From Lachnospiraceae bacterium NE2001 (GTDB taxonomy: Bacteria > Bacillota > Clostridia > Lachnospirales > Lachnospiraceae), in NCBI GenBank assembly GCA_900110635.1, contig FOEK01000020.1, positions 1 to 64,000 of the forward strand: a stretch of DNA of 64,000 nt, given 5' to 3'. Below the pieces are notes generated by a model, which saw only the letters and a list, made by a program, of their open reading frames with translations, searched no databases and was not told where the DNA came from. Shown one piece after another: positions 4,519-43,441 of this stretch (the first letter of the stretch is position 1; each line of letters opens with the position of its first letter). Both the position numbers and the translations under genes were made by a program.

Positions 4519-4582
4519 ATCGAAGCTTATCATTAAGCAAAAATATTAATTCTATCTTTTGATAATAAGAAAGGATGATAAT

Positions 4583-10702: not shown

Positions 10703-10710
10703 ACAACATT

Positions 10711-10752
10711 AAAATCACCAATTGGGGACAGTTCTCAATTGGTGATTTTTTG
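10711..10752 (+). terminator. Strong hairpin terminator after the Ig-repeat gene
   Basis: A perfect 14-bp stem (AAAATCACCAATTG and its complement) encloses a GGGGACAGTTCT-type loop and runs into a T tract. Almost the same stem and loop recur at 43441-43479. Confidence 0.85.
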
Positions 10753-10765
10753 TAAACATGTAACT

Positions 10766-10951
10766 GTTCAGCAGGTGGCATATATATGGGATATTTCTCG
10801 TGCAAGCTTGCTTGCTAAGAGAAATATATCATATATATGCTAGCCTTGCGGAGCAAGGTTGCTAACAATACATCGATAAAGTGTCTGCGAAGCAGACGGT
10901 AGAGCACGAAGTGCGGACTTTATCGATTGTATTGTTAGCAATCTGCTGAAC
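10766..10951. repeat. Multi-stem palindromic intergenic element
   Basis: The outer arms GTTCAGCAG and CTGCTGAAC enclose nested hairpins: a long A/T stem (10779 to ~10841), a CCTTGC/GCAAGG hairpin, and a ~22-bp stem (10861-10882 with 10917-10939, one bulge) that itself holds GTCTGC-GAA-GCAGAC and GCAC-GAA-GTGC. It encodes no protein I can recognise. Its architecture resembles blocks at 22086-22219, 30088-30137 and 51577-51682. Confidence 0.7.
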
Positions 10952-10980
10952 ATAAAATACTAATATGATAAGGGGGAAAT

Positions 10981-11640
10981 ATGCAGAGATTTAAGGCAGT
11001 CGTATTTGATATGGATGGAGTTATTCTTGACTCAGAGAAGATATACAGAAGGTTTGAGTATGTGGCCGCCGAAAAGTACGGTCTTCCAATGGATAATATA
11101 GAAGAGTTCTGCAATCGGATTGCGGGTGGAACGAAGTATACTAACAAGGTTGTGTTTCAGGAGTTCTTTAATACAGATATTGACTATATGGAGTATCGGG
11201 ATGTGGTGTCGGCTGGTGTTGAAGCCTACGCGGCTGAGCATGGTTATGAGGTGAAACCTGGGATTAAGGAACTGTTTGAGTTTCTAAAAGAGAAGGACGT
11301 TAAAATAGCATTGGCAACATCTACTGATAGAGACCGGGCTACAAGGTTTCTCGAACCTCACGGTTTGCTGCCATATTTTGATGCTATGGTTTTTGGCGAC
11401 TCAATCAAACCGGGGCGCGGTAAGCCTAATCCTGATATATATCTGGCTGCTTGTGAGAAACTGGGAACTGAACCGGCTGAAACTATTGGGGTGGAAGATT
11501 CTCGTAATGGAGTCATCTCGTCATCCCGAGGTGGTCTTTACACTGTGATGGTGCTGGACCTTATTCCTCCAGATGAAATAGTCCGCGAGTATGCCGACCA
11601 GATATACGAAAATGCCTACGAAATCACGAACCTCTTCTGA
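10981..11640 (+). CDS. HAD-superfamily phosphatase, beta-phosphoglucomutase-like
   Basis: 219 residues. Motif I is VFDMDGVILDSE with nucleophile Asp10 and Asp12. Motif II is the LATSTDR segment, motif III the Lys of KPGRGKPNPD, and motif IV GVEDSRNG. The helical cap inserted after motif I is of the PGM/phosphatase type. Members hydrolyse or isomerise small phosphorylated metabolites; the substrate cannot be told from sequence. The ribosome binding site AAGGGGG lies 4 bases before the ATG. The gene stands alone between a structured repeat and a convergent gene, overlapping the latter's 3' end by 17 bases. Confidence 0.88.
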   Translation: MQRFKAVVFDMDGVILDSEKIYRRFEYVAAEKYGLPMDNIEEFCNRIAGGTKYTNKVVFQEFFNTDIDYMEYRDVVSAGVEAYAAEHGYEVKPGIKELFEFLKEKDVKIALATSTDRDRATRFLEPHGLLPYFDAMVFGDSIKPGRGKPNPDIYLAACEKLGTEPAETIGVEDSRNGVISSSRGGLYTVMVLDLIPPDEIVREYADQIYENAYEITNLF

Positions 11641-14386
11641 AAGACAGGGGGTGGTTCTCTGTCTTATTATTAAGACGGAGAACCGTCCCCTGTCTTATTA
11701 GAACAAGGAGTAGGGTGATGAGTGTTATGATCAGTCCTGGGGTGACGCCGGCTGTATGGTACTTCATTTTCAGGGTATGATTTCCTGTCGTTATTGGAAC
11801 GCCTATTCCGCCTAGGAACCTAGTCTTTTCAACTTTTTCATCGTCAATATAGATATCCCAGGACTCGTAGTAAGGTAGTGAAATGTAGAGCATTCCTTCT
11901 TTGCTGGAGTCCAGGGTTGCTGTGATGGAATTGTTGATATAGTCTACATTTTTCAGAGAATCCGCTGCCAGAATGTCGTGAAGCTGGGCAAGAGCCTCAG
12001 TATCAAGGATGGCAACGTGTGGACTATTATTCATTTCGGCCAGCTCTTTAGCAGTATAGTTAAAGTAAACATCACGGTTGTCAGGCGTCACAAAGCCGAT
12101 AAAATAGATTTCATCTTTTGTGTAAGTATATACATTACCACACTGGCTGCCGCCTAAATGGAATAACAGGTTTCGGTATACATCTCCAGAAAATTCATAG
12201 GATTCAGGTGCTACAACGAAGAAAGATTCTTCGTCATATTCTTTGGATTCATCAAGCTCCTCGCAAGGTATATCCAGATAAATGTCATTACCTCCCAGGG
12301 CTTTGGAGATGGCGTTCTGGTATTCAAAGGGGTTCTCGTAATCGCTGACATTTCCTACTAATTCAAGTATGCTGTCATCTGATTCAGTGGAGGTTTTTGT
12401 TGCATTGATATCAATATTATCTTTAACATCGACAACAAATCCAAATCCAACATAGTTTGGATTTTCATAGATTTCGTAATCCTCAAAATCTTCCGCTTTC
12501 CCATACACTGAGTAAGGTGAAATGTCTCCTTTATCTGCGATATGGTATCGTACTCCCAACATCATATTTGACAGCGGATTTCCACCATAGTAATTTAGGT
12601 TGTTTGTTCCTACAGCAAGATTATAGAACTTCATTCGATTCATCACGTCTGCTGTATAATCCGATGCAAAATAGGATAAAGTATTAATCTCTGTCATCTC
12701 TCCAAGATTGTGGTAGTCTGGATGATCGCCCATATATTCGGTGAGAGTGTCGAACCGCTTCATCTCGGGATACTGGTCTGCGATAGAATCTATCTGTTTA
12801 GCGTCTTCAATTATTGTGGAAGTACCAGTTAGCTGTTTCGGGAAAATGTATATACAATTGACAATTATTTCGACAGCAGCTATGAAGAGCATAGCTTTGA
12901 AAAGATCGGTGCTTTCAATTCGTATAGCTTTGCATATAATAGCCCACAATATATATACAGCCAGGAAGACAAGTGATGTGATCATGGATACCTGTGGCAT
13001 ATCAAGATTAGTAATGTAAAGGACGGTCAGTATAATGCTAGGGATAACAATTGATAGCAGCACCTTCAAACTGGAAAGAGATTCAACGTGCTGGGAAACG
13101 TCTGCCAGCATGGTTACGCCCAGGAAGACAAAGAAGATAGCAAAACGATTTGGCACCATAGTCTGCATATGAAAACCGTGCATTACATAGTTTAGAAATT
13201 CGTTGTTGAATGCCAGAAATATCACAGCCATTAGGATACATCGCTTGATTCTATCTGACAGCTTTATGTCACGACACAATATAAACATAGGAAGAATGAA
13301 GAACATAAATAGGCCGGCATAAATTATGGCCTGTCCACGGTCGCTGCTGATGGCATCTATGTTGTTCATCATCCTATAATTCTTAAAGTAGTCCAGAAAA
13401 TTGTTGAAGAAACCAAGGACTGTTGGTGACGACAGGTCCTGCTCTTTATAAGCAGAGGATGTAGTCATAAGGAACACAGGGATAATATAAAATGCTGAAA
13501 TCCCCGCCGCTGCTATCGAATACAGTGCGAATCTGAGTCCCTTTAGCAGCATATCCTTTATACTGCCATAATTCAGGGTCAGGAAGTATAGTGTGATAAA
13601 CTCGCACAGAATAAATGCGTGGTAAGGACTGTGGAGCATTAGAAGAACCAGCATAACAACATAGAGAGCCTTTTTGTTTTCGTAAACGAGCCACTCCAGT
13701 CCCAGAATAATAAGTGGAAGATAGCTGGAGTATTTGAAAAGCTCATAAGAAAACATAATCAGGTTGTATGAGCAAAGGGTATAGATCAGGCTGATGGGGA
13801 TAAGCCTGATGTCTGTCTTCTCAAAACGCGAATCTTTTCTATGTGTAAGGAAGAAGATTATAGTGATAGAAGAAAGAATCAGATTGTAAAGCAGAGAAAA
13901 TGTGAAATCCAGCAGGATCAGGGATTCTGGGATAAGATAGTATTTGAGCGTGAGCCATGGAAATACTATATCATAAACTCTGTATCCGTACATGTTGAGA
14001 AAACCGCCTGTACTGAAGGTGTTGTGGTAAGGCAGTCCGTGCTTTTTTATCTCGTGGATGTTCTCCACGTGCTTTGCATATAGTTGCTCCAGACCGTCCC
14101 CTCTAATAGCTGGAAACGTACCTAAGGGGTAGCTCTTAGCAAGGGCAAGACATATAAAAAAGAGTATAGTGATGATGACGGCACTGATGAGATAAATCCG
14201 GTTATCCTTAATCAGATCTTTTAGTCGAATCTTTTTCCTGGGTGCCGCAGCCTCTGTACTCGATGAGTTATCATCGTTATCTTCATTTCTGTCGATAGAT
14301 GATTCATCAATAATTGTTCTATCGATGGTTATATTGTTAGCGTTTGCTTTATTATTTTTTTTTGGTTTATTTTTCTTCTTGCTCAT
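11624..14386 (-). CDS. YfhO-family multi-spanning membrane protein
   Basis: 920 residues. A Lys/Asn-rich cytosolic N-terminus of ~60 residues is followed by about a dozen membrane helices, a long extracytoplasmic domain (about residues 540-870), and a last helix near the C-terminus. The early loop with RGDGLEQLY and HNTFSTGGF is typical of the YfhO family, whose Bacillus and Listeria members take part in glycosylation of teichoic acids, with a GT-C-like fold. No ribosome binding site precedes the ATG; instead TATAAT ends six bases upstream. The ATG is the only Met in the N-terminal region. The last residues overlap a repeat and the HAD gene end. Confidence 0.85.
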   Translation of the reverse strand: MSKKKNKPKKNNKANANNITIDRTIIDESSIDRNEDNDDNSSSTEAAAPRKKIRLKDLIKDNRIYLISAVIITILFFICLALAKSYPLGTFPAIRGDGLEQLYAKHVENIHEIKKHGLPYHNTFSTGGFLNMYGYRVYDIVFPWLTLKYYLIPESLILLDFTFSLLYNLILSSITIIFFLTHRKDSRFEKTDIRLIPISLIYTLCSYNLIMFSYELFKYSSYLPLIILGLEWLVYENKKALYVVMLVLLMLHSPYHAFILCEFITLYFLTLNYGSIKDMLLKGLRFALYSIAAAGISAFYIIPVFLMTTSSAYKEQDLSSPTVLGFFNNFLDYFKNYRMMNNIDAISSDRGQAIIYAGLFMFFILPMFILCRDIKLSDRIKRCILMAVIFLAFNNEFLNYVMHGFHMQTMVPNRFAIFFVFLGVTMLADVSQHVESLSSLKVLLSIVIPSIILTVLYITNLDMPQVSMITSLVFLAVYILWAIICKAIRIESTDLFKAMLFIAAVEIIVNCIYIFPKQLTGTSTIIEDAKQIDSIADQYPEMKRFDTLTEYMGDHPDYHNLGEMTEINTLSYFASDYTADVMNRMKFYNLAVGTNNLNYYGGNPLSNMMLGVRYHIADKGDISPYSVYGKAEDFEDYEIYENPNYVGFGFVVDVKDNIDINATKTSTESDDSILELVGNVSDYENPFEYQNAISKALGGNDIYLDIPCEELDESKEYDEESFFVVAPESYEFSGDVYRNLLFHLGGSQCGNVYTYTKDEIYFIGFVTPDNRDVYFNYTAKELAEMNNSPHVAILDTEALAQLHDILAADSLKNVDYINNSITATLDSSKEGMLYISLPYYESWDIYIDDEKVEKTRFLGGIGVPITTGNHTLKMKYHTAGVTPGLIITLITLLLVLIRQGTVLRLNNKTENHPLSFRRGS
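11641..11697. terminator. Nested inverted repeat between convergent genes
   Basis: Two 26-27-base arms (11641-11666 and 11671-11697) are near-perfect inverted copies, and each arm can also fold on its own through AAGACAG and CTGTCTT. The core GGTTCTC/GAGAACC with GTCCCC is the repeat core seen elsewhere in the window. It sits within the 3' untranslated part of the HAD gene and inside the 3' end of the minus-strand gene, so a bidirectional terminator role is likely but would act inside coding sequence on the minus strand. Confidence 0.6.
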
Positions 14387-31131: not shown

Positions 31132-31158
31132 CTTAGTAGTTAAGTAATGGAGAGAAAA

Positions 31159-32283
31159 ATGAGTTTAGAGACAAATACGATATGTGGAGAGAATCCAGAT
31201 TATTTAACAGAACAGATCATCACATATCTCGGTAATAAGAGAGCGCTGCTAGATTTTATTGGCACAGGTTTAGATGTTGTAAAGGATGAGCTGGGGAAAG
31301 AAAAACTGGATGCTGTAGATGTTTTTTCTGGTTCCGGCATAGTATCCAGGTACCTAAAGAGGTACGCTAATAAACTATATACAAATGATCTGGAGGATTA
31401 TTGCCAGACCATAAACAGGTGCTATCTTGCAAATAAGGAAGATGTAGATTTAAAAGAATTAAATAAGCATTTTACTTCCATAAAGGAAAAGCTTGATTAT
31501 GAACCGTTAAGACAGGGATTTATCTCTGAAATGTATAGTCCCCAGGATGATACAGATATAAAGCTTGGAGAAAGGGTATTTTATACAACACGTAATGCTA
31601 AGTATATAGATACCGCAAGACAACTGTTAGAAGAAGTTCCTGAACCATATAAGACATACCTTCTTGCTCCTCTGATTTATGAGGCTTCCGTGCATAATAA
31701 TACCAGTGGAGTGTTCAAGGGCTTTTATAAAAACTCTAAAACAGGTATTGGACAATATGGTGGAGATGGGCGAAATGCTCTCCTCAGGATATTATCAGAT
31801 ATAGAGCTGAAACTGCCTGTTTTTAGTGAGTTTAACTGTGATGTTCAAATATATAAAGAGGATGCAAATAAACTTGCTGAATCACTTCCTCACACGGATA
31901 TAGCTTATATGGATCCGCCATATAATCAGCATCCATTTGGATCTAACTATTTTATGCTTAATCTGATAAATAATTATGAGAGGCCATCAGAGGTTAGCAA
32001 GGTGTCTGGCATTCCGGTTGGATGGAATAAATCCAAGTTCAACAAAAAGAATCTGGCGAAGGACACGATGAAGGATTTATGTGAGAAGATCGATTCAAAA
32101 TATCTGCTTATATCTTTTAGTGATGATGGCTTCATTTCAAAGGATGAAATGGTTGAGTTCCTGTCGGACCTTGGGGATGTGCGAGTGATGGACAAGGAAT
32201 ATAATACATTCAGAGGCTGCAGAAATCTAAGTGGCAGAGATATTCACGTTAAGGAATTGTTATATTTAGTAAGAAAGGAATAG
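31159..32283 (+). CDS. N6-adenine DNA methyltransferase of a type II R-M system
   Basis: 374 residues from the ATG at 31159; the ATG at 31147 lies within the GGAGAG ribosome binding site region and lacks one of its own. The LGNKRALLDFI opening and the SAM-binding DVFSGSGIVSRYL (about residues 54-66) with the catalytic DPPY motif at ~252-255 mark a D12-type (Dam-like) adenine methylase. It would protect the host from the nuclease encoded 4 bases downstream. AT content is higher than in the neighbouring genes. Confidence 0.88.
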   Translation: MSLETNTICGENPDYLTEQIITYLGNKRALLDFIGTGLDVVKDELGKEKLDAVDVFSGSGIVSRYLKRYANKLYTNDLEDYCQTINRCYLANKEDVDLKELNKHFTSIKEKLDYEPLRQGFISEMYSPQDDTDIKLGERVFYTTRNAKYIDTARQLLEEVPEPYKTYLLAPLIYEASVHNNTSGVFKGFYKNSKTGIGQYGGDGRNALLRILSDIELKLPVFSEFNCDVQIYKEDANKLAESLPHTDIAYMDPPYNQHPFGSNYFMLNLINNYERPSEVSKVSGIPVGWNKSKFNKKNLAKDTMKDLCEKIDSKYLLISFSDDGFISKDEMVEFLSDLGDVRVMDKEYNTFRGCRNLSGRDIHVKELLYLVRKE

Positions 32284-32287
32284 TGAT

Positions 32288-33376
32288 ATGTCGGAAGGAA
32301 TGACTCAATCAGATAATCTTCGAAAAACACTTGAAGGTAATGTGAAAAATGAAATATCAAAGGAAGAGGATAAACAATGCAAAGATGCAGTGCTGGAAAT
32401 AATTCCTGAGATAGAAAGAGAGTATGGAGTTGTTCTTTCCTGGGAAAAAACTCTCTATATGAAGGATATTGTTAAAGTGTTAGAGGAAAGATATCCAGGT
32501 GTTTCTTTTGCGTCACCGTCTTCTGAAAAGTCTTATATGTCCCCAGATGGAGGACTAACTTATCTGGTTGATAAGTGTGGGCGAAGATATCCCATCCTCA
32601 TTGCTGAAGTTAAACGCCAGGGAACAAATGATAAGAGAAACAAAGAGGGGAAGGAAAATCAATCTCTTGGAAATGCAATAGAGAGACTGGGGAAAAATGT
32701 AATAGGTTTAAGAACATATCTGATGAATGAAGATATATTTCCTTTTGTATGCTTTGGCGACGGCTGTGATTTTAAAGAAGGATCAACTATTCTTGATAGG
32801 GTACTCACTATTGCTATGTTTGGAGAGCTAAATGAGATTCACACGGAAAATGAGACATACACGAAGGATGACAAGAAGTATGTTTTTAACCGTGGAAGTT
32901 ACTTTTTTCGAGAAAAAGCCTGGACTTTTGCTGAAATCAAAGAAAGGTTAAAAGAAACAGTAGTATTAAGTTTAAAATACTATAAAAACAAATATGGTGA
33001 AGATATATTTGTTTTAGATGAAAAAGAAAGAAAAATTAGAGACAGTTATTGGCACTTGTTAGAGCTTTATAGACTGAATTATAACAACGTTATGAAGAAG
33101 TCTGTTAAGCAAAGCACCATTGATGAGCATGCAGAAAGACTAGAAAGTTTTTTTGAAACACATGTTCTTTTTAGTGAATCAATTGATAAAACGAGTGTGG
33201 ATGATAGCGATATTATAGAAATATATGTTAATACGGTAAAAGAGTTGGTTGATTCAAATAAAGATATAGAGAAGGACCTTATCTCAAGTCTAAATAATTT
33301 TACAAATTATTTATATAATTCTGATAATATAGATGAAGATACGTATAAAAGAATAAAGAACATAAAAAAACAATAG
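32288..33376 (+). CDS. EcoRI-family type II restriction endonuclease
   Basis: 362 residues. The core matches EcoRI in order: SPDGG with Asp87 (EcoRI Asp91), AEVK with Glu107 and Lys109 (EcoRI Glu111, Lys113), the GNAIER recognition segment at 128-133, the FPFVCFGDG strand and an ILDR segment. GNAIER is shared by EcoRI and, as I recall, MunI, which both cut around AATT, so an AATT core is likely here; the outer base is not predictable. It is longer than EcoRI (277) by a C-terminal helical ~110 residues. Tightly coupled to the methylase. Confidence 0.85.
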   Translation: MSEGMTQSDNLRKTLEGNVKNEISKEEDKQCKDAVLEIIPEIEREYGVVLSWEKTLYMKDIVKVLEERYPGVSFASPSSEKSYMSPDGGLTYLVDKCGRRYPILIAEVKRQGTNDKRNKEGKENQSLGNAIERLGKNVIGLRTYLMNEDIFPFVCFGDGCDFKEGSTILDRVLTIAMFGELNEIHTENETYTKDDKKYVFNRGSYFFREKAWTFAEIKERLKETVVLSLKYYKNKYGEDIFVLDEKERKIRDSYWHLLELYRLNYNNVMKKSVKQSTIDEHAERLESFFETHVLFSESIDKTSVDDSDIIEIYVNTVKELVDSNKDIEKDLISSLNNFTNYLYNSDNIDEDTYKRIKNIKKQ

Positions 33377-33433: not shown

Positions 33434-34486
33434 CTAGACGATTTCAAGGATGGTGTTTACCATCAGGTCGTTCTGCTTTGGATTCATAAAGCAGATGCGT
33501 ATATATTTGTTTGATAGTCCCCTGATGTCGTCACATTTTCGGATGATAATTCCGCGTTGGTTGCAGTGTGCAGCCACATCAGAAGCGGTAACGTCGTCCT
33601 TTAGGAGCTTCACCAGCATGAAGTTTGCATCAGGCTTGATAAGACGAATGGTCTTACTGGTAGACATAGCCAGATATACCAGTGATCTCTCGGTGTGAAC
33701 TATGGACTGGGACTCTTCAATATAGGCCTGATCCTTGAACATTTCCGTAACTGCGATAGCAGTGAGGGATGCAATGTTGTTTTTTGTTGTGAAACGGTCA
33801 ATAATTTCCTTGTACTCTGGATTATTGAGAACCGCATAGGCGAATCTAAGTCCAGGCACTGCGAAGAACTTTGATACACTTCGAATAATTGCCAGATTAG
33901 AGTAGTCCTTGGTCAGCGGAACTGAGGTGTAGTCAAGGTAGTCATCGAGGAACTCGATATACATTTCATCAACAATAAGAAAAATATTCTTAGCCTTGCA
34001 GGCCTCAGTAAGTGTCTTTATATCTTCCTGGGATACCTTCTTTGAGGTTGGATTGTTCGGATTTGAGATGATCACGATATCCAGGTCATCAGTCAGTGCC
34101 TCACACAGCTTGTTAATATCAAGTGTGAAGTCATTTTCCTCTCCCAGGTCAAAATACTTTATCTCAGAATTGTACGAGGTGAATACATTTGCATACTCAC
34201 TTGGTCCAGGAGAAATAACCATTACCTTCTTTGGAAGGATAAATGCAGCAAAAAGCTTCAGTAGATCAGTCAGACCATTTCCCATAACAAGTGATTCAAG
34301 TGGAGCATCAACATAGGATGAAACTGCTGATTTAAGCTTTGTATAGTAAATATCGGGATACTTTACGATGGAGTCGATATTCTCCTTGATGGCATTCCTA
34401 ACGGAACTCGGAATTCCCTTCGGATTGAGATTCGCGTTGAAGAGAACTGTCTCGTACTGAGTTATTCTAAGCTGTGAAGGATTCAT
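33434..34486 (-). CDS. Class I/II PLP-dependent aminotransferase
   Basis: 350 residues from the Met at 34486, which has AAGGA ~9 bases upstream; a longer frame from 34564 has no support. Fold type I motifs: MGNGLTDLL near the N-terminus, SNPNNPTS, the Asp/Tyr of VDEMYIEF, and PLP-lysine in SVSKFFAVPGLRFAY. It resembles HisC and CobD (threonine-phosphate decarboxylase) proteins. No cobalamin or histidine genes are near, so the substrate is open. Confidence 0.85.
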   Translation of the reverse strand: MNPSQLRITQYETVLFNANLNPKGIPSSVRNAIKENIDSIVKYPDIYYTKLKSAVSSYVDAPLESLVMGNGLTDLLKLFAAFILPKKVMVISPGPSEYANVFTSYNSEIKYFDLGEENDFTLDINKLCEALTDDLDIVIISNPNNPTSKKVSQEDIKTLTEACKAKNIFLIVDEMYIEFLDDYLDYTSVPLTKDYSNLAIIRSVSKFFAVPGLRFAYAVLNNPEYKEIIDRFTTKNNIASLTAIAVTEMFKDQAYIEESQSIVHTERSLVYLAMSTSKTIRLIKPDANFMLVKLLKDDVTASDVAAHCNQRGIIIRKCDDIRGLSNKYIRICFMNPKQNDLMVNTILEIV

Positions 34487-34645
34487 AATACTTTTTCCTT
34501 TTAAAACAAAAACTTTTTTGATATAATAAGGTGATTTATTGTTGTTTTTTACCACGTCATACAACTTATATTTTACAACAGTTGAGACGAAAGTTGCAAG
34601 AGGTTTCTAGACAAAAGAGACATCTATATAAAGGGGTTTCTATCA

Positions 34646-37600
34646 ATGAAGGCAATAGTTGAACAATACGCAAAAGGCCAGTTCAAGGTTGACCGTCCGG
34701 AGGTTTATATCTCTGAGAGGGAATTCAGTATAAATATAGAGGCAGGAACCATTTATGAGGGAAGCTTCCAAGTTGAGAGCCGGAATGACTACCCAATTAA
34801 GGGAATGGTTTACGATAGCCGATACGTACTTCGCTTTGAAGATCACAGCTTTATAAGCAGGAACTTCACAGTGAAGTATTCTTTTGACGCTACTTGCCTT
34901 GAGGCCGGTCAGAATTTCCGTGGTCATATAAATGTTATCACAGACGGTGGAGAGTGGAGACTGCCTTATGACATTTCTATTGTTCAGCCTTGTGTAAAGC
35001 ACCACGATGAGAAGATTGATGACCTCTTCAAGTTTGCCTCCCTTGCAGAAAGAAACTGGAATGATGCAGCACGTCTGTTTGTAAATGATGATTTTCGAAG
35101 GACATTTATCGATAAAGAGATAATCCTGAAGAAGACCTACGAGAGCCTTCTGGAGAGCCGTTCAGTAAATCAGGCTATGGAGGAGTTCCTGGTTCTCGTA
35201 TCAAAGAAGAGAACAGTAACACTGTCTGTTCCGAAGGCAAAGGTTGATATTGCTATGCCTACCGAGACAGAGAGTATCACAATAGAGATATCCAAGAATA
35301 CCTGGGGGTATACTTTTTCTGAGATCCGCAGTGATTCAGAGTTTATCATACCTTCAAAGAAGACTATATCGGCTAAGGATTTCACTGGAAATGTATGCTC
35401 ACTTAAGGTGTTCATTTCACCTGAGCACGTACCAGAGGGTGAGAACTCAGGAAAGCTGATCATTGAGAATATTTACCAGAGAATCGAGGTGGATATCCAC
35501 CTGGCTAAGCCGCTTACTGCACGTCCTAATCAGGATATCAGAAGACGTAACCGTGAGTATAAGCGCAGCAGGACAGCTCTTACAAGAACCTATCTTGACT
35601 TCCGCATGGACAGGATGTCTCTGGACGAATATATCTCAAAGAATATGGAGGCGCTTAAGACTCTAAATGAGATAGAGCCTGAAGAGGATATGTATCGTCT
35701 TGCAATCATGCATATGAATATTCTCTCTGGTGAATATGCAAAGGTTGAACAGGAGTTCCTGCGTATCGAAGCCGATGTGGATAAGGAAAGCATGGGCAAG
35801 ATGCAGCTTTGCTACTACAACTATCTGAGAGCAATGGTGCTGAAGGATGATGAAGTAACAGAGAAAACTGCACATATCATTAGGAGGAATTATCGCACAC
35901 AGGAGCCGAAGATGTTTTATTTCTGGCTGCTTCTGTTTGTGGATGCTACATATAATGAGGACAAGTCCGCTCTATATCGAGAGTTGTCTCAGATGTTTGA
36001 AGAGGGCGAGAACAGTCCGATCATTTACTTTGAACTATGTAATCTCTTCAACTCCAACCCAATGATGCTGAAGAAGCTTACAGAGCTTGAAATCATTTGT
36101 ATCAAATGGGGTCTTCGTCACAAGTTTATATCAGACGAAGTTCTTCTGGAGTTTGTTAAGCTTGCTGGTCGAAACAAGGATTTCAACAAGCAGATATTTG
36201 ATGTTTTAAAGGAAATCTACGACAAGAATGAAATGGAACTGAGGGCTGAACGCCGCAAGGTTCTCGAGGAGAGAGGCGTTGAGGATAGCGAGCTCTATGA
36301 TTCCATGCCAGTTACCATGACCTCGACCTCACGTATTTCATCTATTCATGAGTATGATGATGAATCCCTGGAGGATATATCATTTGATTTTGGTAAATAT
36401 GGCGATTCGGAGTTAGGAAGTGTTCGCTTTAATGCTGAAGATAATGATACAGAGGATGACGAAGATTTCTTTATTGGAGGAATGTCTTCCCTGGATGACG
36501 ACGATGACGACTACGACGATGATGATGTAAAGGAAGATATTAGTTCAGCGGATTCAAAATCAAATGGAATCAGAGACGATAAGTTTGATGCTGCTATCCG
36601 TGCGGACGCAGCTGAGAAGCTGACTCGTAGAGAAAATGAGAATCTGGAGGTTTTGTCCAGTATCTGTTCTATGCTTATATCCGCTAACATGCTGGATCAT
36701 AAGTATCATCGGTTCTACAAAGCTGCAGTGCTTAAGAGCCTGAAGTTTATCGGTCTCAATGAGTGTTATATTCGAAGCATGAACCGTGATAAGTATGACC
36801 TTATTCCTACGTCTGTTCTTATGTATCTCAATTATAAGAACACCCTGACTGAGGATGAGCTTGCTTATCTCTATGCAAATGTTATCTTCAATAAGTCTGA
36901 GCATATGAAGATCTATCACGAGTATGCGCCTACAATGGAAGACTTTATGGAGAACATGATCATCAGGGGCAAGGTCAATGATGATCTGACAGTTATATAT
37001 GACGAGTTCCTGGAGCCGGAAAATGTCAGCTCCCTCTATGCAGGAAAGCTTATCAATATCATTTTCCGTCGTAAAATAGTATGCAACAACAAGAATGTTG
37101 CGGCTGTAATTGTTAGCCATGAGGAGCTGCAGGCAGTTCAGAGGATTCCTCTGGTTAATGGTGAGGCCTATGTCGAGATTCTTTCTGACAATGCGTCTAT
37201 CATTTTCGAGGATAAGAATGGAAACCGTTACGCTGGTTCTATTCCATATCATTTTGAACGAATTGTTGATGAGAAGGCCTATATGCCAATATGTCGTGAG
37301 TATAGCCCACGAGATTATCGAGTTCTTCTCTTTAACTATGAGAGTCTTGGACAGTTTACTTATAAGAATGCAAAAGAGGTAAATGCTGCTCGTGAGATAA
37401 TCCAGTGCGACGAGATAAGCTATGATTATAAGCAGCAGGCTTGCCTCAATATTATAGAGTATTACCATGAAAACCTGGATACAGACGTGCTTATAAAGTA
37501 TCTGAGCAGATTGGATATTGAGTTCCTGTCTCACGCAAATGCCAGAACAGTCATCACATATCTCATTGATATGAATATGTTTGATAAGGCATTTCAGGCG

Positions 37601-38617
37601 GTTAAGCTTTATGGATTTAACGAGCTGGATGTTAACGAGTTATATCGTCTTGCTGACTACGGTGTTACGGATTCAGAAGGCTTCCTGAATGAAGACCTGA
37701 TGTCAATCTGTATCAACCTGTATAAGACTGGAACGGTCAATTCCAATATCCTTGGTTATCTGGTGTCCAACTTCAAGGGAAGTATCGAAGAGCTTGCAGA
37801 TCTCTTCAAGCTGTCCAAGGACAGGGTGGCAGATATTGGTCCACTTGCTGAAAATACTCTGGCTCAAATGATGTTCTCAGACACATATATCGAGTATATC
37901 TATGATGTATTCCTTACATATTATAGTGGCAGAAGCAGAGGTCTAGTGGTAAAGGCCTTCGCCAGACTGTCGGCACATAACTATCTTGTAAGAGATGATC
38001 AGGTACCAAGCTTCATCTTCGATGCGTTGTTCCAGGAGGTAGTGAAGGGCAACATCGATGATGAGATATCCATTATGTCGCTGCTGCTTTACTTTAGTAA
38101 GCTGGAGAGATTTACAGATCTTCAGAGAAACTGGATAGTTGATAACGTAGAGAAGTTTGTGGATGCAGGAAAGATACTTCCATTCTTTAAGAACTTTGCT
38201 TCATTTATCAGACTTCCACAGGATATATTCCTCAAGACTTATCTTATCTATAAATCAGACAGACAGCGTCAGGTATATGTTAAGTACAGCTTTGATACTG
38301 GTACCAGAAATAAGCAGAAGACTGAACGCCGCCGACTGGAAGAGGTGGTCAGCGGAGTATATGTACTGGAATTTGTTGTATTCCATGGTGAGAGACTGGT
38401 TTATTCCATCGAGGATGATCCAAATGGTAACGCAAAGATTGTAGAAAGCGAGGTTCTGAAGAAGAGGTCCTTCTCTGGAAAGAGCCTCAGCCGTTTCGAA
38501 CGGATCAACTCTATGTTGGTTAAGCAGGAAATGCGTAAGGATAAGGAACTTCTCGAGGACCTGGATGTATACATCAATACCGTCCACCTCTTTGAAGAAA
38601 CTTTGAAGATCTTATAG
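34646..38617 (+). CDS. 1323-residue scaffold-like protein, DUF5717-like
   Basis: Family recognised only tentatively as DUF5717, known mainly from Lachnospiraceae. No signal peptide or membrane helix, so cytosolic. Visible parts: an N-terminal beta-rich domain (~10-110), a second beta-rich domain (~190-295), then a long alpha-helical, solenoid-like region (~310-540), an acidic, Asp-rich linker (~570-630, with up to six Asp in a row), a second helical region, a beta insertion around 820-880, and a helical C-terminus with a late beta segment near 1220. It starts an operon with a degenerate Hsp70/actin-fold protein and a TPR-like protein. No function is established. Confidence 0.7.
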   Translation: MKAIVEQYAKGQFKVDRPEVYISEREFSINIEAGTIYEGSFQVESRNDYPIKGMVYDSRYVLRFEDHSFISRNFTVKYSFDATCLEAGQNFRGHINVITDGGEWRLPYDISIVQPCVKHHDEKIDDLFKFASLAERNWNDAARLFVNDDFRRTFIDKEIILKKTYESLLESRSVNQAMEEFLVLVSKKRTVTLSVPKAKVDIAMPTETESITIEISKNTWGYTFSEIRSDSEFIIPSKKTISAKDFTGNVCSLKVFISPEHVPEGENSGKLIIENIYQRIEVDIHLAKPLTARPNQDIRRRNREYKRSRTALTRTYLDFRMDRMSLDEYISKNMEALKTLNEIEPEEDMYRLAIMHMNILSGEYAKVEQEFLRIEADVDKESMGKMQLCYYNYLRAMVLKDDEVTEKTAHIIRRNYRTQEPKMFYFWLLLFVDATYNEDKSALYRELSQMFEEGENSPIIYFELCNLFNSNPMMLKKLTELEIICIKWGLRHKFISDEVLLEFVKLAGRNKDFNKQIFDVLKEIYDKNEMELRAERRKVLEERGVEDSELYDSMPVTMTSTSRISSIHEYDDESLEDISFDFGKYGDSELGSVRFNAEDNDTEDDEDFFIGGMSSLDDDDDDYDDDDVKEDISSADSKSNGIRDDKFDAAIRADAAEKLTRRENENLEVLSSICSMLISANMLDHKYHRFYKAAVLKSLKFIGLNECYIRSMNRDKYDLIPTSVLMYLNYKNTLTEDELAYLYANVIFNKSEHMKIYHEYAPTMEDFMENMIIRGKVNDDLTVIYDEFLEPENVSSLYAGKLINIIFRRKIVCNNKNVAAVIVSHEELQAVQRIPLVNGEAYVEILSDNASIIFEDKNGNRYAGSIPYHFERIVDEKAYMPICREYSPRDYRVLLFNYESLGQFTYKNAKEVNAAREIIQCDEISYDYKQQACLNIIEYYHENLDTDVLIKYLSRLDIEFLSHANARTVITYLIDMNMFDKAFQAVKLYGFNELDVNELYRLADYGVTDSEGFLNEDLMSICINLYKTGTVNSNILGYLVSNFKGSIEELADLFKLSKDRVADIGPLAENTLAQMMFSDTYIEYIYDVFLTYYSGRSRGLVVKAFARLSAHNYLVRDDQVPSFIFDALFQEVVKGNIDDEISIMSLLLYFSKLERFTDLQRNWIVDNVEKFVDAGKILPFFKNFASFIRLPQDIFLKTYLIYKSDRQRQVYVKYSFDTGTRNKQKTERRRLEEVVSGVYVLEFVVFHGERLVYSIEDDPNGNAKIVESEVLKKRSFSGKSLSRFERINSMLVKQEMRKDKELLEDLDVYINTVHLFEETLKIL

Positions 38618-38630
38618 AAAGGCGTAAATT

Positions 38631-39884
38631 ATGGCAGATGTTTTTTACATAGGAATGGATCTCTGTTCAGATTTCACACAGTTATCCTTCTATAATGACA
38701 TCAAGCGTGAGCCTGAGTCAGTCAGCCAATTAAATAATAAAGATACCTATCTAATGCCAAATATTCTCTTCTATAGTACCGATACTGAACATTGGTATGT
38801 GGGTGGAGAGGCGTCCGAGGCGCGTTTCAATGAAAATGGTACCGTGGTCGATGGCATTTTCGAGAATATAAGAAATGATGGCAGAATTGAGATAGCTGGA
38901 AGGGAGTATTCCTATCAGGAACTCTTTATGATGATGGTGAAGCTTCACATCGATTCCTTCCTGTATCGTTATGAAGCGGCCGAGATTAAGAAGCTGGTTA
39001 TCTCTGTTGAAACCTATGATCCTGAGATTTTCAGTCTCCTCAGCGGACTTTATCAGGATATGGGTATTGAGCAGGAGTGTATCGAAATCACATCTCACCT
39101 GGATAGTGGTCTCTATTATATTTTCAATCAGCCAACAGAACTCTGGAATAACAGTGTGGCCCTTTATGATTACAGTGCTGATGGTCTTAATTACTACCGT
39201 ATTGATATTGGCAGAAATAAGGAGCCAAAGGTTATAAATGTTATCCACGAGGATTATACTGAACAGATGTCCCTTTCCAAGTTTGGAAATGATACTTACC
39301 AAATGGATATGGATTTTGCAAAGATAGCTGAATATGAGGGAAAGAAGGCTTATATTTCAGCGGTGTTCCTGACTGGCGTCGGCTTCTCCAACAAATGGAT
39401 GAAGAAGTCTACTAACGTGCTCTGTCAGGGAAGACGAGTCTTTGTGGGACAGAATATATATACAAAGGGTGCCTGCTACCGTGCAGTAGGTGGCGAGTAC
39501 AGAGGCTTCTATGATGAGTTCTTTGTGGAAACCAAGGAAAATGTACTCTCTGATATCGGAATATCTCTGGGAGATGAAGCAGATACATTTGTTCCTATTA
39601 TTAATGGCGGAAAACAGTGGTACAATACTCACGGTAAGCTGAATGTTATCCTGGACGATACAGATGTGATATCACTGGTGTACAGAGATCACAGAACTGG
39701 TGAGGAGAAACGCGAGACCGTTAGGATTCATGGACTTCCGAAGCGTCCGAATAAGACTACCAAGGTTAGTCTGGAGGTGGAGTTTGACAGCCCGAATGAG
39801 GGCGCGGTCATAGTCCGGGACCTGGGCTTTGGCAAGTTGTATCCAACTACCAACAAAATATATAGAAAGGAGTTTACTATCTGA
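38631..39884 (+). CDS. Degenerate Hsp70/actin-fold protein, DUF5716-like
   Basis: 417 residues. The order of motifs fits an Hsp70/actin ATPase: phosphate-1-like FYIGMDLCSDFTQLSFY at residues 5-21, phosphate-2-like VALYDYSADGLNYYRI near 176-191, an adenosine-type VFLTGVGFSNKWM near 243, and IYTKGACYRAVG near 276-287, which parallels the ARGAA motif of DnaK. Catalytic Gly and Thr residues of classic motifs are partly replaced, so ATP use is uncertain. A beta-rich C-terminus follows. It lies 13 bases after the giant gene and overlaps the next start by one base, so the three proteins probably act together. Confidence 0.65.
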   Translation: MADVFYIGMDLCSDFTQLSFYNDIKREPESVSQLNNKDTYLMPNILFYSTDTEHWYVGGEASEARFNENGTVVDGIFENIRNDGRIEIAGREYSYQELFMMMVKLHIDSFLYRYEAAEIKKLVISVETYDPEIFSLLSGLYQDMGIEQECIEITSHLDSGLYYIFNQPTELWNNSVALYDYSADGLNYYRIDIGRNKEPKVINVIHEDYTEQMSLSKFGNDTYQMDMDFAKIAEYEGKKAYISAVFLTGVGFSNKWMKKSTNVLCQGRRVFVGQNIYTKGACYRAVGGEYRGFYDEFFVETKENVLSDIGISLGDEADTFVPIINGGKQWYNTHGKLNVILDDTDVISLVYRDHRTGEEKRETVRIHGLPKRPNKTTKVSLEVEFDSPNEGAVIVRDLGFGKLYPTTNKIYRKEFTI

Positions 39885-40717
39885 TGGCACAGTTAATTCT
39901 ATGTACTTCAAAGGTTGCAGAGACTCCTTTTACATTTCTCAATACAAAGGTTGAGATATATACATATGAGGAGCTTTGCTTCTATATCTATAATAATACG
40001 GTGCTGATAAGTAAGTCGGCCCTTTCTGACAAGCTCTTTGATTGGATAAGAACAGAGCTTGGAATGGAGGAACTGGCTGACAGACTTGTGGGACTGACCA
40101 ACAAGACAGCATACGCTCAGGATATCCTGATCGAGATCCTCAGCGCTGGAAATTATTACACAATTGAGGAAATCAAGGATTATACCGAGGCTTGGCATAA
40201 ATATCGCAAGCTTGATCCGCTCCAGAAGGCGAAGCTGAAGGCAGATGGATATCTTGCTTATAGAAGATATATCAAAGCGGCTACATTTTATGATGATATA
40301 ATTCACGTGACGGATGATAAGACGGATCCGGTATTTCTGGGAAATATATATCATAACCGTGCTGTTGCTGCAGCTAACAATATGGATCTTGAAGAGGCAA
40401 AGAGCTTCTTTATGAAGGCTTATGAGCTGAATGATAACCCTGATTCGCTAAAGAGCTATTTCTACATCGTGGCAATTACAGGCGATACCTCATCGCTTCG
40501 TAATGAGATAAGAAATATGGGACTCCCTGATGAGTACCTTGAGGAGATAATGACTGAGATCGGTGAGTCAAAGGATGATGTTCGAGAGATGACTATCTTC
40601 GCGATGCTTCAGCGTGCGGCATATAACAAGATGAACAAGGATATGACCGATTACGATAAGCGAATGGATATTATTCTCAGCGAACTGAAGGATGACTTCC
40701 GAGAACAAGCTATCTAA
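39884..40717 (+). CDS. Small helical TPR-like protein of the scaffold operon
   Basis: 277 residues, not recognised as a named family. The N-terminal ~55 residues are beta/alpha, and residues ~95-240 are helical with TPR-like units (for example DPVFLGNIYHNRAVAAANN and MDLEEAKSFFMKAYEL). No signal peptide. The start codon overlaps the stop of the previous gene (TGATG), which implies translational coupling. Probably a partner of the Hsp70-like and giant proteins. Confidence 0.65.
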   Translation: MAQLILCTSKVAETPFTFLNTKVEIYTYEELCFYIYNNTVLISKSALSDKLFDWIRTELGMEELADRLVGLTNKTAYAQDILIEILSAGNYYTIEEIKDYTEAWHKYRKLDPLQKAKLKADGYLAYRRYIKAATFYDDIIHVTDDKTDPVFLGNIYHNRAVAAANNMDLEEAKSFFMKAYELNDNPDSLKSYFYIVAITGDTSSLRNEIRNMGLPDEYLEEIMTEIGESKDDVREMTIFAMLQRAAYNKMNKDMTDYDKRMDIILSELKDDFREQAI

Positions 40718-40774
40718 GAGCAAGATTTGCTATAAGCAAATCCTGTAATTTCAATATAATACATGGAGGAAAAC

Positions 40775-43441
40775 ATGAGTAAGGAACTTGAGAAGAATTA
40801 CAGCCCTGAACAGATAGAGGGCAGATTATATAGGAAGTGGGTTGATAATGGTTACTTCCACGCTGAGGTTGATCGAAGCAAGAAGCCATTTACCATTGTT
40901 ATGCCACCTCCAAATATTACAGGACAGCTCCACATGGGACATGCCCTGGATAATACAATGCAGGATATTCTTATCCGCATGAAGAGAATGCAGGGCTACA
41001 ATGCTCTGTGGCAGCCAGGTACTGATCACGCAGCTATTGCTACGGAGGTTAGGATCATAGCATCACTTAAGGAACAGGGCATCGACAAGAATGACCTGGG
41101 ACGCGAAGGCTTCCTGAAGAAAGCCTGGGAGTGGCGCGAGGAGTATGGCGGACGTATCGTTAACCAGCTGAAGAGAATGGGTTCTTCTGCAGACTGGGAC
41201 CGCGAACGTTTCACAATGGATGAAGGTAACAACAAGGCTGTTAATACAGTTTTCAAGAAGCTCTATGATAAGGGCTGGATCTATAAGGGCTCACGTATAG
41301 TTAACTGGTGTCCAGTTTGTAAGACAACAATTTCCGATGCTGAGGTAGAGCATGAGGAACAGGAAGGACATTTCTGGCACATCAATTATCCGGTAGTTGG
41401 AGAAGAGGGGCGCTTTGTAGAGATAGCTACTACACGTCCAGAGACTCTGCTTGGTGATACAGCTGTTGCTGTAAACCCTGATGATGAGAGATATGCTGAT
41501 ATCGTTGGAAAGACTCTACTTCTTCCACTGGTTAACAGAGAGATTCCTGTTGTTGCAGATTCATATGTAGATAAGGAGTTTGGAACAGGCTGTGTTAAGA
41601 TCACACCTGCTCACGACCCTAACGACTTTGAGGTTGGAAAGCGTCACGACCTTGAAGAGATAAATATAATGAATGATGATGCCACCATCAATTGTCCAGG
41701 TACAAGATATGATGGCATGGACAGATATGAGGCACGTAAGGCTGTTCTTGAGGATCTTGAAGCTCAGGGTCTTATGGTAAAGGTTGTTCCTCATACTCAT
41801 ATGGTAGGTACTCACGACAGATGTGGTACAACAGTTGAGCCTCTTGTAAAGCCTCAGTGGTTTGTAAAGATGAGTGATATGGCTGCTCGTGCCCGTAAGG
41901 TAGTTGAGACTGGAGAAGTAAAGCTTGTTCCTGAAAGAATGAACAAGATCTACTATAACTGGATTGATAATATGCGTGACTGGTGTATATCAAGACAGCT
42001 GTGGTGGGGACACAGAATCCCTGCATGGTACTGCCAGGATTGTGGTGAGACTATCGTAGAAATGGAAGCACCATGTGAATGTCCAAAATGTAAGAGTAAG
42101 AATCTTCAGCAGGATCCAGATACACTTGATACCTGGTTCTCATCAGCGCTCTGGCCATTCTCTACAGTTGGCTGGCCAGATACTGAGTCAGAGGATTATA
42201 AATATTTCTTCCCAACAGACGTTCTTGTAACTGGTTACGATATCATATTCTTCTGGGTAATCAGAATGATCTTCTCATCACTTGAGCAGACCGATAAGAT
42301 TCCATTCCACACAGTTCTGTTCCATGGACTTGTAAGGGATGAACAGGGACGTAAGATGAGTAAGTCTCTGGGGAATGGTATCGACCCACTGGAGATTATC
42401 GACCAGTATGGTGCTGATGCACTGAGATTTATGCTTATTACAGGAAATGCTCCTGGTAATGATATGAGATTCATCTGGGACAGGCTTACAGCAAGCCGTA
42501 ACTTTGCTAATAAGATATGGAATGCTTCTCGTTTCATCATGATGAATATGGATTCTGCTAAAGAGGCTGGAATCACAGATGAGGCAATTAATGCAGTTAC
42601 CCTTGATGACCTTACTATGGCAGATAAGTGGATAGTTGCTAAGGCCAACAGTCTGGTTCGTGATGTAACAGATAATATGGAGAAGTACGAGCTTGGCGTT
42701 GCTGCAGATAAGATTCACGACTTCCTGTGGGATGAGTTCTGTGACTGGTACATAGAGATGGTTAAGCCAAGACTTTGGGATGATAAGGATACTACAAAGG
42801 CTGCAGCTCTTTGGACACTCCGCGAGGTTCTCTCTATCGGACTTAAGTTACTTCATCCTTATATGCCATTTGTTACAGAGGAAATCTATTGTACACTTAC
42901 AGGTGATGAGTCTATAATGATAGCTCCATGGCCAGTTGCTGAGGAATCACGTGACTTTGAGACAGAAGCTAAGAATGTAGATATAATCAAGGATGCGGTT
43001 CGTGGAATTAGAACTGTAAGAACAGATATGAATGTACCACCATCAAGAAAGGCTGCTGTATATGTAGTATCTGACAAGGATGATATCCGTAAGGTATTTG
43101 ATGACAGTTCTGCATTCTTTGGAACTCTTGGCTATGCCAGCGAGGTTCATGTTCAGGCTGATAAGACTGGAATTGCTGATGACGCAGTATCTGCAGTTAT
43201 TCATAATGCAGTGATCTATATACCATTTGCTGATCTTGTTGATGTTGAGAAGGAGCTGGAGAGACTTAACAAAGAGAAGGCTCGTCTTGAAGGAGAGATT
43301 AAGCGTGGCGAGGGAATGCTCTCAAATCCTAACTTTGTTGAGAAGGCTCCGGAAGCTAAGGTTAACGCCGAGAAGGAGAAGCTTGCTAAGTATAAGGAAA
43401 CCTACGAGCAGGTGCTTGAACGCATCAATACATTAAAATAA
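40775..43441 (+). CDS. valS: Valine-tRNA ligase
   Basis: 888 residues from the ATG at 40775; the ATG at 40763 overlaps the GGAGGA ribosome binding site used by the later start. Class I motifs: PNITGQLHMGHAL (HIGH) and KMSKS in GRKMSKSLGNG. The CP1 editing domain with TTRPETLLGDTAV, Cys-based zinc clusters, the anticodon domain and a C-terminal coiled-coil arm (~815-888) are all in place. It charges tRNA-Val and edits mis-activated threonine. Confidence 0.97.
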   Translation: MSKELEKNYSPEQIEGRLYRKWVDNGYFHAEVDRSKKPFTIVMPPPNITGQLHMGHALDNTMQDILIRMKRMQGYNALWQPGTDHAAIATEVRIIASLKEQGIDKNDLGREGFLKKAWEWREEYGGRIVNQLKRMGSSADWDRERFTMDEGNNKAVNTVFKKLYDKGWIYKGSRIVNWCPVCKTTISDAEVEHEEQEGHFWHINYPVVGEEGRFVEIATTRPETLLGDTAVAVNPDDERYADIVGKTLLLPLVNREIPVVADSYVDKEFGTGCVKITPAHDPNDFEVGKRHDLEEINIMNDDATINCPGTRYDGMDRYEARKAVLEDLEAQGLMVKVVPHTHMVGTHDRCGTTVEPLVKPQWFVKMSDMAARARKVVETGEVKLVPERMNKIYYNWIDNMRDWCISRQLWWGHRIPAWYCQDCGETIVEMEAPCECPKCKSKNLQQDPDTLDTWFSSALWPFSTVGWPDTESEDYKYFFPTDVLVTGYDIIFFWVIRMIFSSLEQTDKIPFHTVLFHGLVRDEQGRKMSKSLGNGIDPLEIIDQYGADALRFMLITGNAPGNDMRFIWDRLTASRNFANKIWNASRFIMMNMDSAKEAGITDEAINAVTLDDLTMADKWIVAKANSLVRDVTDNMEKYELGVAADKIHDFLWDEFCDWYIEMVKPRLWDDKDTTKAAALWTLREVLSIGLKLLHPYMPFVTEEIYCTLTGDESIMIAPWPVAEESRDFETEAKNVDIIKDAVRGIRTVRTDMNVPPSRKAAVYVVSDKDDIRKVFDDSSAFFGTLGYASEVHVQADKTGIADDAVSAVIHNAVIYIPFADLVDVEKELERLNKEKARLEGEIKRGEGMLSNPNFVEKAPEAKVNAEKEKLAKYKETYEQVLERINTLK

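Follow-up and report, generated by a model that had tools for sequence, protein, structure and literature searches.

The 64,000-nt stretch of Lachnospiraceae bacterium NE2001 referred to here as the window (contig FOEK01000020.1, positions on the forward strand), carries a compact operon of three genes, which encode a giant scaffold protein, a member of the DUF5716 family and a tetratricopeptide repeat (TPR) protein. We consider it somewhat probable that this operon, taken in all its aspects, is the remnant of a larger Hsp70 machine that has been conserved as a passive holding and assembly platform. We are highly confident in two parts of this reading, the Hsp70 identity of DUF5716 and the reduction of the operon from a large, eight-gene cluster of other families of the order, and regard the passive-holding function as an even chance. 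Loci, genomes and families are given by L, G and f codes where needed; the families with the large cluster are known here by codes only (f4, f22 and others).

A preliminary description of this DNA had claimed three coupled genes, and the open reading frames (ORFs), all on the plus strand, were found exactly so: they encode 1323, 417 and 277 aa, with 13 bases between the scaffold and DUF5716 genes and a 1-base overlap between the DUF5716 and TPR genes. The products are members of named Pfam families, with the scaffold matching PF18984 (DUF5717_N, 2.2e-275, 916.3 bits against a cut-off of 25) and PF18983 (DUF5717, 218.1 bits against 25), and the 417-aa protein matching PF18980 (DUF5716_C, 2e-97, 326.2 bits against 34.7). 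In NCBIfam, searched up to E = 1, nothing matched the scaffold or DUF5716, and the TPR protein had one match far below the cut-off. The Pfam entries read "family of unknown function" and contain neither the Hsp70 identity nor the large cluster and its reduction. The preliminary description missed both the named families and the descent from an eight-gene cluster. Among the papers listed from the open literature, a scope outside which most subscription papers fall, we found no description of these families or of the cluster; DUF5716 is named once, in an article about mismatch repair and curcuma.

Profile and structure comparisons indicate that DUF5716 is a Hsp70 homologue with a nucleotide-binding domain (NBD)-like part and a beta-type substrate-binding domain (SBD-beta), and without a lid. 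Searched as a single sequence, the window protein gave just a hint (DnaK at 0.45), and it had no match to PF00012 up to E = 1 in Pfam and none in a search of its own genome. Profile A1, built from 32 family-type DUF5716 sequences (31 from the window's family code and one from G167, coded f8), had six significant matches in the PDB, every one of them DnaK (1.5e-5 to 2.3e-4). Profile A2, which represents DUF5716 of the large clusters, matched DnaK at 2.1e-23, and the two profiles matched each other at 1.1e-56 over 420 columns. The DUF5716 protein of one large cluster, L041 (523 aa), links the families directly, with DUF5716_C (1.5e-26) and HSP70 (1.4e-17, 63.6 bits against 20.6) matching together. 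An AlphaFold2 (AF2) model of the window protein, made with 71 sequences, had a mean local confidence (pLDDT) of 92.6 and a predicted TM-score (pTM) of 0.89. Its best Foldseek match was DnaK (5obv, 2.1e-20 over 515 columns), and there were 348 PDB matches at E <= 0.001, of which the best 50 are Hsp70 or Hsp70-complex chains by title; two of these 50 have ciliary central-pair titles, one of them (7n6g_6K) being Heat shock protein 70A. TM-scores to whole Hsp70 chains were moderate (0.43–0.57), so the relative placement of the NBD-like and SBD-beta parts may differ from that in Hsp70. The SBD-beta of the model comprises eight strands (residues 307–416), the last of which occupies residues 410–416 of 417, and the alpha-helical lid is absent.

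Aligned with the DnaK of the same genome, DUF5716 has its motifs in Hsp70 order; GACYRA (residue 280) aligns with GACIQG of DnaK, its Gly being kept in 36/36 and its Ala in 34/36 copies. The proposal of a degenerate Hsp70 is therefore borne out by profile, structure and motif evidence. Ten columns are invariant across 71 DUF5716 sequences, which are mostly 22–30% identical to the window protein. DUF5716 shares with DnaK/Hsp70 (PF00012) the fold, the NBD-like and SBD-beta parts and the motif order, but differs in lacking the catalytic Lys, DLGGGT, the alpha lid and a PF00012 match.

Residue counts, taken from an alignment with the DnaK of the window's genome and excluding fused DUF5716 copies, show which residues of the ATP site DUF5716 has lost. 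The three other Hsp70s of the large cluster, named Hsp70-A, Hsp70-B and Hsp70-C, all keep the residue equivalent to DnaK Lys70 and the phosphate-2 Thr (28/28, 29/29 and 24/24, respectively, for each residue). In DUF5716, Lys70 is kept in 0/33 large-cluster and 0/36 family-type copies, and the Thr in 0/33 and 1/36. The large-cluster form retains the phosphate-1 Asp in 33/33 copies, the Gly of the same motif in 32/33 and the second Gly of the adenosine motif in 31/33; for the family type, the corresponding counts are 32/36, 10/36 and 0/36. By alignment, Hsp70-A, -B and -C carry complete ATPase residues and DUF5716 is already degenerate in the large clusters, and by these counts its site eroded in two steps, in the large-cluster form and then in the family type. 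In the window protein, the phosphate-1 and phosphate-2 catalytic residues are replaced relative to its own DnaK, and it is very unlikely to be an ATPase.

Large clusters span eleven families of the order besides the window's family. We read 33 loci first (L037–L071 without L044 and L046, ten family codes) and added four f22 loci. The order is fixed: scaffold (one gene or two), Hsp70-A, a GrpE-domain protein, DUF5716, Hsp70-B, Hsp70-C with a von Willebrand factor A (VWA) domain, then the TPR protein; some clusters add a protein with two transmembrane segments (two-TM protein). Median lengths of the five inner proteins are 559 (Hsp70-A), 604 (GrpE-domain protein), 522 (DUF5716), 546 (Hsp70-B) and 693 aa (Hsp70-C). 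The inner genes stand together in 23 of the 33 loci, and scaffold and TPR genes join them in 20; the remaining loci keep the order and are cut by contig ends or the fetched stretch, or are split, as in L050 and L051, in which Hsp70-C sits on another contig. In L041, Pfam matched HSP70 in Hsp70-A (5.1e-76), Hsp70-B (7.4e-63) and Hsp70-C (4.5e-96, with VWA at 1.9e-10), GrpE (3e-13) at the C-terminal end of the GrpE-domain protein, and TPR. The HSP70 matches of all three end at profile position 477–514 of 599, and thus no lid was matched in them. A more diverged version of the cluster is carried by 7 of the 8 f22 genomes searched; the eighth, G022, and two f2 genomes gave DnaK-like matches only. 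All eight genes, that of the membrane protein among them, are present in three of the four f22 loci that were read, and the fourth, L206, has an ORF at the TPR position that is unmatched by the TPR profile.

Hsp70-C is 69–89% identical to the L041 copy (L041:5495-7573) in nine other clusters, as against mostly 31–49% for DUF5716, and this conservation across families suggests that its Hsp70 and VWA surfaces are tightly constrained. In L045, the large cluster closest to Lachnospiraceae, Hsp70-C lies in two ORFs (5788-6384, 198 aa; 4340-5824, 494 aa), possibly through early motor loss or a sequencing error.

The three-gene form is nearly universal in the window's family. DUF5716 was found in 147 of 150 Lachnospiraceae genomes (146/149 genera) with one match each, and three had no match; across the order, 142/295 genomes matched, outside the window's family mostly in longer proteins with two matches. 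The named loci are the best 80 of 587 confirmed, and their sources range over Coprococcus catus, Pseudobutyrivibrio, Roseburia, Blautia and Butyrivibrio, among others. In 72 of these 80 the scaffold, DUF5716 and TPR genes follow each other, two of them with DUF5716 and TPR fused; some of the other eight are cut by contig ends and some have a gene missed by the simple ORF caller. The genes thus stay together in other genomes; of the two outcomes that would have refuted the preliminary description, separation of the genes and lack of a structural match to the Hsp70/actin fold, neither occurred. Three pairs of loci with identical sequences (L073/L113, L086/L121 and L094/L191) are counted twice in the counts over ~120 loci given below; L086 comes from G889, which belongs to the same genus as the window's genome.

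The motors are absent from the sampled genomes of this family. Hsp70-C was found at E <= 1e-150 in 59/196 genomes of the order (almost complete in 57, and partial in G209 and G003), distributed over ten codes (f4, f5, f7, f11, f16, f18, f19, f22, f23 and f24) and none of them the window's family. In 60 Lachnospiraceae genomes, the Hsp70-C profile gave DnaK-level matches of at most 316.4 bits, which never passed position 538/692 and lacked the VWA part, and the GrpE-protein profile gave six weak matches at E <= 1e-4 (positions 511–612, frames of 206–239 aa), which probably are housekeeping GrpE. The window's genome contains DnaK, one other Hsp70 (frame of 570 aa) and two weaker HSP70 matches, which appear to be MreB-like proteins. 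A tree of 62 rows recovered one group for each of the three Hsp70s of the large cluster and placed DUF5716 beside Hsp70-B (100/100), with Lachnospiraceae DUF5716, fused copies included, as sister to L045 (100/100). With f22 added and the tree rooted on Hsp70-B by our choice, Lachnospiraceae DUF5716 grouped with f22 and L045 (95/90), L045 being nearest (96/95). Since Hsp70-B, beside which DUF5716 groups, neighbours it in large clusters only, and since both nearest lineages carry the large cluster, loss is the simpler reading: the three Hsp70s disappeared from Lachnospiraceae together with the GrpE-domain protein, while scaffold, pseudo-Hsp70 and TPR protein were retained.

In samples wider than the order, DUF5717_N matched 11/243 genomes of a class sample and 4/249 of a phylum sample, all from the window's family except a weak match in G391 below the cut-off; among the rows listed, other families of the order are represented by only three genomes (class) and one (phylum), all unmatched. 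Profile A2 matched 280/291 genomes of the class, and among the matches listed outside the window's family the maximum was 107.5 bits; these matches look DnaK-like. No large cluster resembling that of f22 (204–318 bits) was seen in this search, a negative that does not cover diverged relatives outside the order, since even DUF5716 of the window reaches no more than 100 bits in it. Spread by mobile elements was rejected: two viral_contigs scans gave no relative, and the 290 plasmid records that match Hsp70-C are all below 60% identity, none of them covering 80%.

Two loci depart from the family pattern. L091 (G167:C40), coded f8, has an operon of the Lachnospiraceae type (DUF5716 3.9e-94), and two other listed f8 genomes, G008 and G030, were unmatched; transfer, contamination or misplacement may explain it. 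In L156, from a Lachnospiraceae-type metagenome-assembled genome, three tandem Hsp70-like genes (9042-13883; 502, 527 and 519 aa) lie directly 3' of the TPR gene; they score 100–134 bits with the Hsp70-A, -B and -C profiles and are thus of a different kind.

Gene arrangement suggests that the products act together. The gene order is constant and intergenic gaps are mostly <50 bases. DUF5716 frames of 690–727 aa occur in 6 of the 150 Lachnospiraceae genomes, and the four that were read (L072–L075) are all DUF5716–TPR fusions; L112 and L113 are the fused loci of the named set, L113 being on the same contig as L073. Trees put the fused genes at two positions, and a single origin was not rejected (p-AU 0.40). 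These fusions suggest an intimate complex, as had been supposed from the gene spacing. For each of the three genes, nonsynonymous divergence among three close relatives (pN 0.13–0.19) was low against a saturated synonymous divergence (pS 0.75–0.81), giving pN/pS of 0.16–0.26, and all three are under purifying selection.

The scaffold is matched by DUF5717_N in two stretches (profile 1–528, then 525–872) with an acidic linker between them; this linker, already recognized in the preliminary description, is 45% D/E over 60 residues from residue 572. An AF2 model of a 1177-aa homologue from Pseudobutyrivibrio xylanivorans (L125; pLDDT 86.6, pTM 0.62, so the domain arrangement is unsure) begins with two N-terminal beta sandwiches; a helical solenoid and a beta domain come next, then another solenoid and another beta domain, and helices close the chain, in agreement with the claim of a solenoid protein. 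Foldseek related this model to chains of the ciliary central apparatus and to a PapD-like domain of HYDIN (1.5e-3), and its solenoids to chains in Ski2-3-8, Naa15/Naa10 and pentatricopeptide repeat (PPR) entries; TM-scores were low, and the likeness to Ig/PapD-like domains and TPR/PPR solenoids is at the fold level and not one of homology. The scaffold is therefore best described as a predicted giant protein of beta sandwiches and TPR/ARM-like solenoids with a C-terminal beta domain. The window's TPR protein alone matched Pfam TPR_8 at 0.0007, below the cut-off, and a 30-row profile gave clear TPR matches, so that "TPR-like" was apt; it is homologous to the TPR protein, mostly of 383–413 aa, that follows Hsp70-C in large clusters.

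A fourth member, mostly of ~395 aa, is encoded just after the TPR protein in 71 of the 116 loci that have a TPR gene (window counted). All four f22 loci carry it as well, as do L038 and L045; the remaining 31 of the 33 large-cluster loci read first gave no match, some of them stopping short of its place. At least two hydrophobic segments were found in 72/73 and 6/6 copies and in none of the sequences of any other component. Coiled coils were judged by eye, and six copies that were scanned had no match at the Pfam cut-off.

In the full machine, the pseudo-Hsp70 would work with Hsp70-B on the scaffold in a structural or regulatory role. Partners or clients would be brought in by the VWA and TPR parts, and the GrpE domain would perform nucleotide exchange. 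The two-TM protein may often, not always, anchor the machine to the membrane. In the window's organism, scaffold, pseudo-Hsp70 and TPR protein would make up a passive complex whose SBD-beta and solenoids hold clients without an ATP cycle of their own; clients may be passed to the housekeeping DnaK, or no cycle may be required. A bolder reading, which we offer tentatively, takes the eight-gene cluster as a new class of Hsp70 machine with three lidless motors, a pseudo-Hsp70, its own GrpE, VWA/TPR adaptors, a scaffold, sometimes an anchor and no J-protein of its own, whose dead Hsp70 may have become the core of an ATP-free assembly platform in Lachnospiraceae.

The main rival, in our estimate unlikely, is a dedicated co-chaperone of the housekeeping DnaK similar to Ssz1 or Hsp110, which would bind DnaK or nascent chains and stimulate it or exchange its nucleotide. 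Entries of the ribosome-associated complex (RAC) with Ssz1 (6sr6, 5mb9) and the Sse1–Hsp70 complex (3d2e) are indeed among the best 50 of the 348 Foldseek matches, and DUF5716 groups beside an active Hsp70, its gene neighbour in the large clusters. A gene for HtpG lies upstream on the same strand in 7/120 loci, one of them a locus-edge fragment, and dnaK-dnaJ lies directly upstream in 1/120 (L120); this linkage is suggestive, but it is rare and the loci are related. Ssz1 and Hsp110 retain nucleotide binding, whereas the family-type DUF5716 has mostly lost phosphate-1, phosphate-2 and the second adenosine Gly. The preliminary description had also proposed a cytoskeletal machine similar to actin or FtsA. 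The NBD of Hsp70 and actin have a common fold, the Hsp70s of the large clusters also give MreB_Mbl matches (5.1e-17 at best, well short of the 4.5e-96 for HSP70), and scaffold and membrane protein could be positional. This proposal is nevertheless rejected as very improbable, because the best 50 structure matches are of the Hsp70 type, the protein has an SBD-beta and it no longer has the ATP site needed for actin-like dynamics; moreover, Pfam, searched up to E = 1, matched it to none of actin, FtsA and MreB. Still less credible is a decaying, functionless leftover, which would explain the lost motors and ATP site but conflicts with the low pN/pS, the near-universal presence and the ten invariant columns.

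Comparison with known systems bears on a further rival, a stress-surveillance or anti-phage system akin to the GTPase systems of the GAP1-N2 group (Kaur et al, 2020; PMC7159879), which come closest among published parts lists. According to the sections of that paper available to us, these systems likewise combine Hsp70, GrpE, VWA domains, sometimes a second truncated Hsp70, and beta-sandwich (FNIII-type) proteins with DnaJ or TPR. They are centred on a GTPase, whereas Pfam found neither GTPase nor effector in any of the seven L041 cluster proteins; that cluster has three active-type Hsp70s and one dead one, and the family form is motorless. PADLOC gave only partial matches in L041 (two Hsp70s and TPR; best 8.7e-11) and none for the window's three proteins, and a near-universal single copy is unlike a patchy defence system; we regard this rival as improbable. 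RAC, in the part of PMC7083937 available, likewise holds a non-canonical Hsp70, Ssz1, in a heteromeric complex, but Ssz1 is paired with a J-protein. The Myxococcus DnaK2–GrpE bicistron (PMC11019930, available sections) similarly joins a specialised DnaK paralogue to a GrpE of its own, but consists of two genes, and pseudo-Hsp70, scaffold and VWA are not among the parts given there.

Several observations weigh against the operon being the platform left by a larger Hsp70 machine. Pfam found no J-domain protein among the seven L041 proteins, the one large cluster scanned whole, and no DnaJ match in the window trio. No heat-shock operator was found at the operon, using CIRCE and CtsR consensus patterns with <=3 mismatches on the loci scanned: one locus, L186 (1141-3293), has a perfect CIRCE, before a htpG that ends 62 bases 5' of the scaffold gene, there was otherwise no CIRCE, and two CtsR-like matches had three mismatches each (L060, L132). 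The membrane protein was unmatched in the window's genome, the one genome covered by a search run without a positive control, and tethering therefore cannot be general and would be optional. Assembly into a complex is inferred from gene order and fusion, and several branches of the trees are long and some of their rows unusual in composition, for which the program gave a warning. As to chromosomal place, the divergent aminotransferase gene lies upstream in 37/120 other family-type and 3/4 f22 loci, and valS follows on the same strand in 14/120 and 2/4, counts that are minima because the fetched flanks were short. Each flank is found in 0/33 of the other large-cluster loci, so it is one family, f22, that places the two forms at the same chromosomal position.

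On the reading as a remnant of a Hsp70 machine, an operon that almost all sampled genomes of a major gut family carry in a single copy, and that until now had DUF labels only, becomes readable as the core of such a machine; other families of the order offer the larger version for comparison. Loss of the ATPases of a chaperone complex with retention of its pseudo-ATPase is a natural experiment, which can test what the Hsp70 fold does without ATP; if the bolder reading given above is true, a pseudoenzyme has outlived the enzymes it regulated. The reading as a remnant also makes concrete predictions on complex membership, client and, in species that retain the two-TM protein, membrane tethering. 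The features of the locus are collected in the table, in which the border between the NBD-like and SBD-beta-like parts was taken from predicted secondary structure.

Table. The three-gene operon and its flanking genes in the window
Feature	Position	Strand	Evidence
Scaffold, 1323 aa (DUF5717_N + DUF5717)	34646-38617	+	ORF; Pfam; AF2 model of homologue
Acidic linker of scaffold, residues ~572-631	36359-36538	+	Composition
DUF5717 C-terminal domain of scaffold, residues 1016-1317	37691-38596	+	PF18983, 2.1e-64
DUF5716 pseudo-Hsp70, 417 aa	38631-39884	+	PF18980, AF2, Foldseek, motif loss
NBD-like part, residues ~1-300, catalytic residues gone	38631-39530	+	Alignment, AF2
SBD-beta-like part, residues ~301-417, eight predicted strands, without lid	39531-39881	+	AF2, Foldseek
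TPR protein, 277 aa	39884-40717	+	Profiles; homology to TPR protein of large clusters
Divergent class I/II aminotransferase, upstream synteny marker, outside the complex	33434-34564	-	Pfam, synteny
valS-like gene (valyl-tRNA synthetase, named from sequence), downstream synteny marker	40763-43441	+	Synteny

Beside the operon, an EcoRI-type restriction-modification pair occupies positions 31147-33376, with matches to a D12-class N6-adenine methyltransferase (2.6e-20) and to Pfam EcoRI (1.4e-10).

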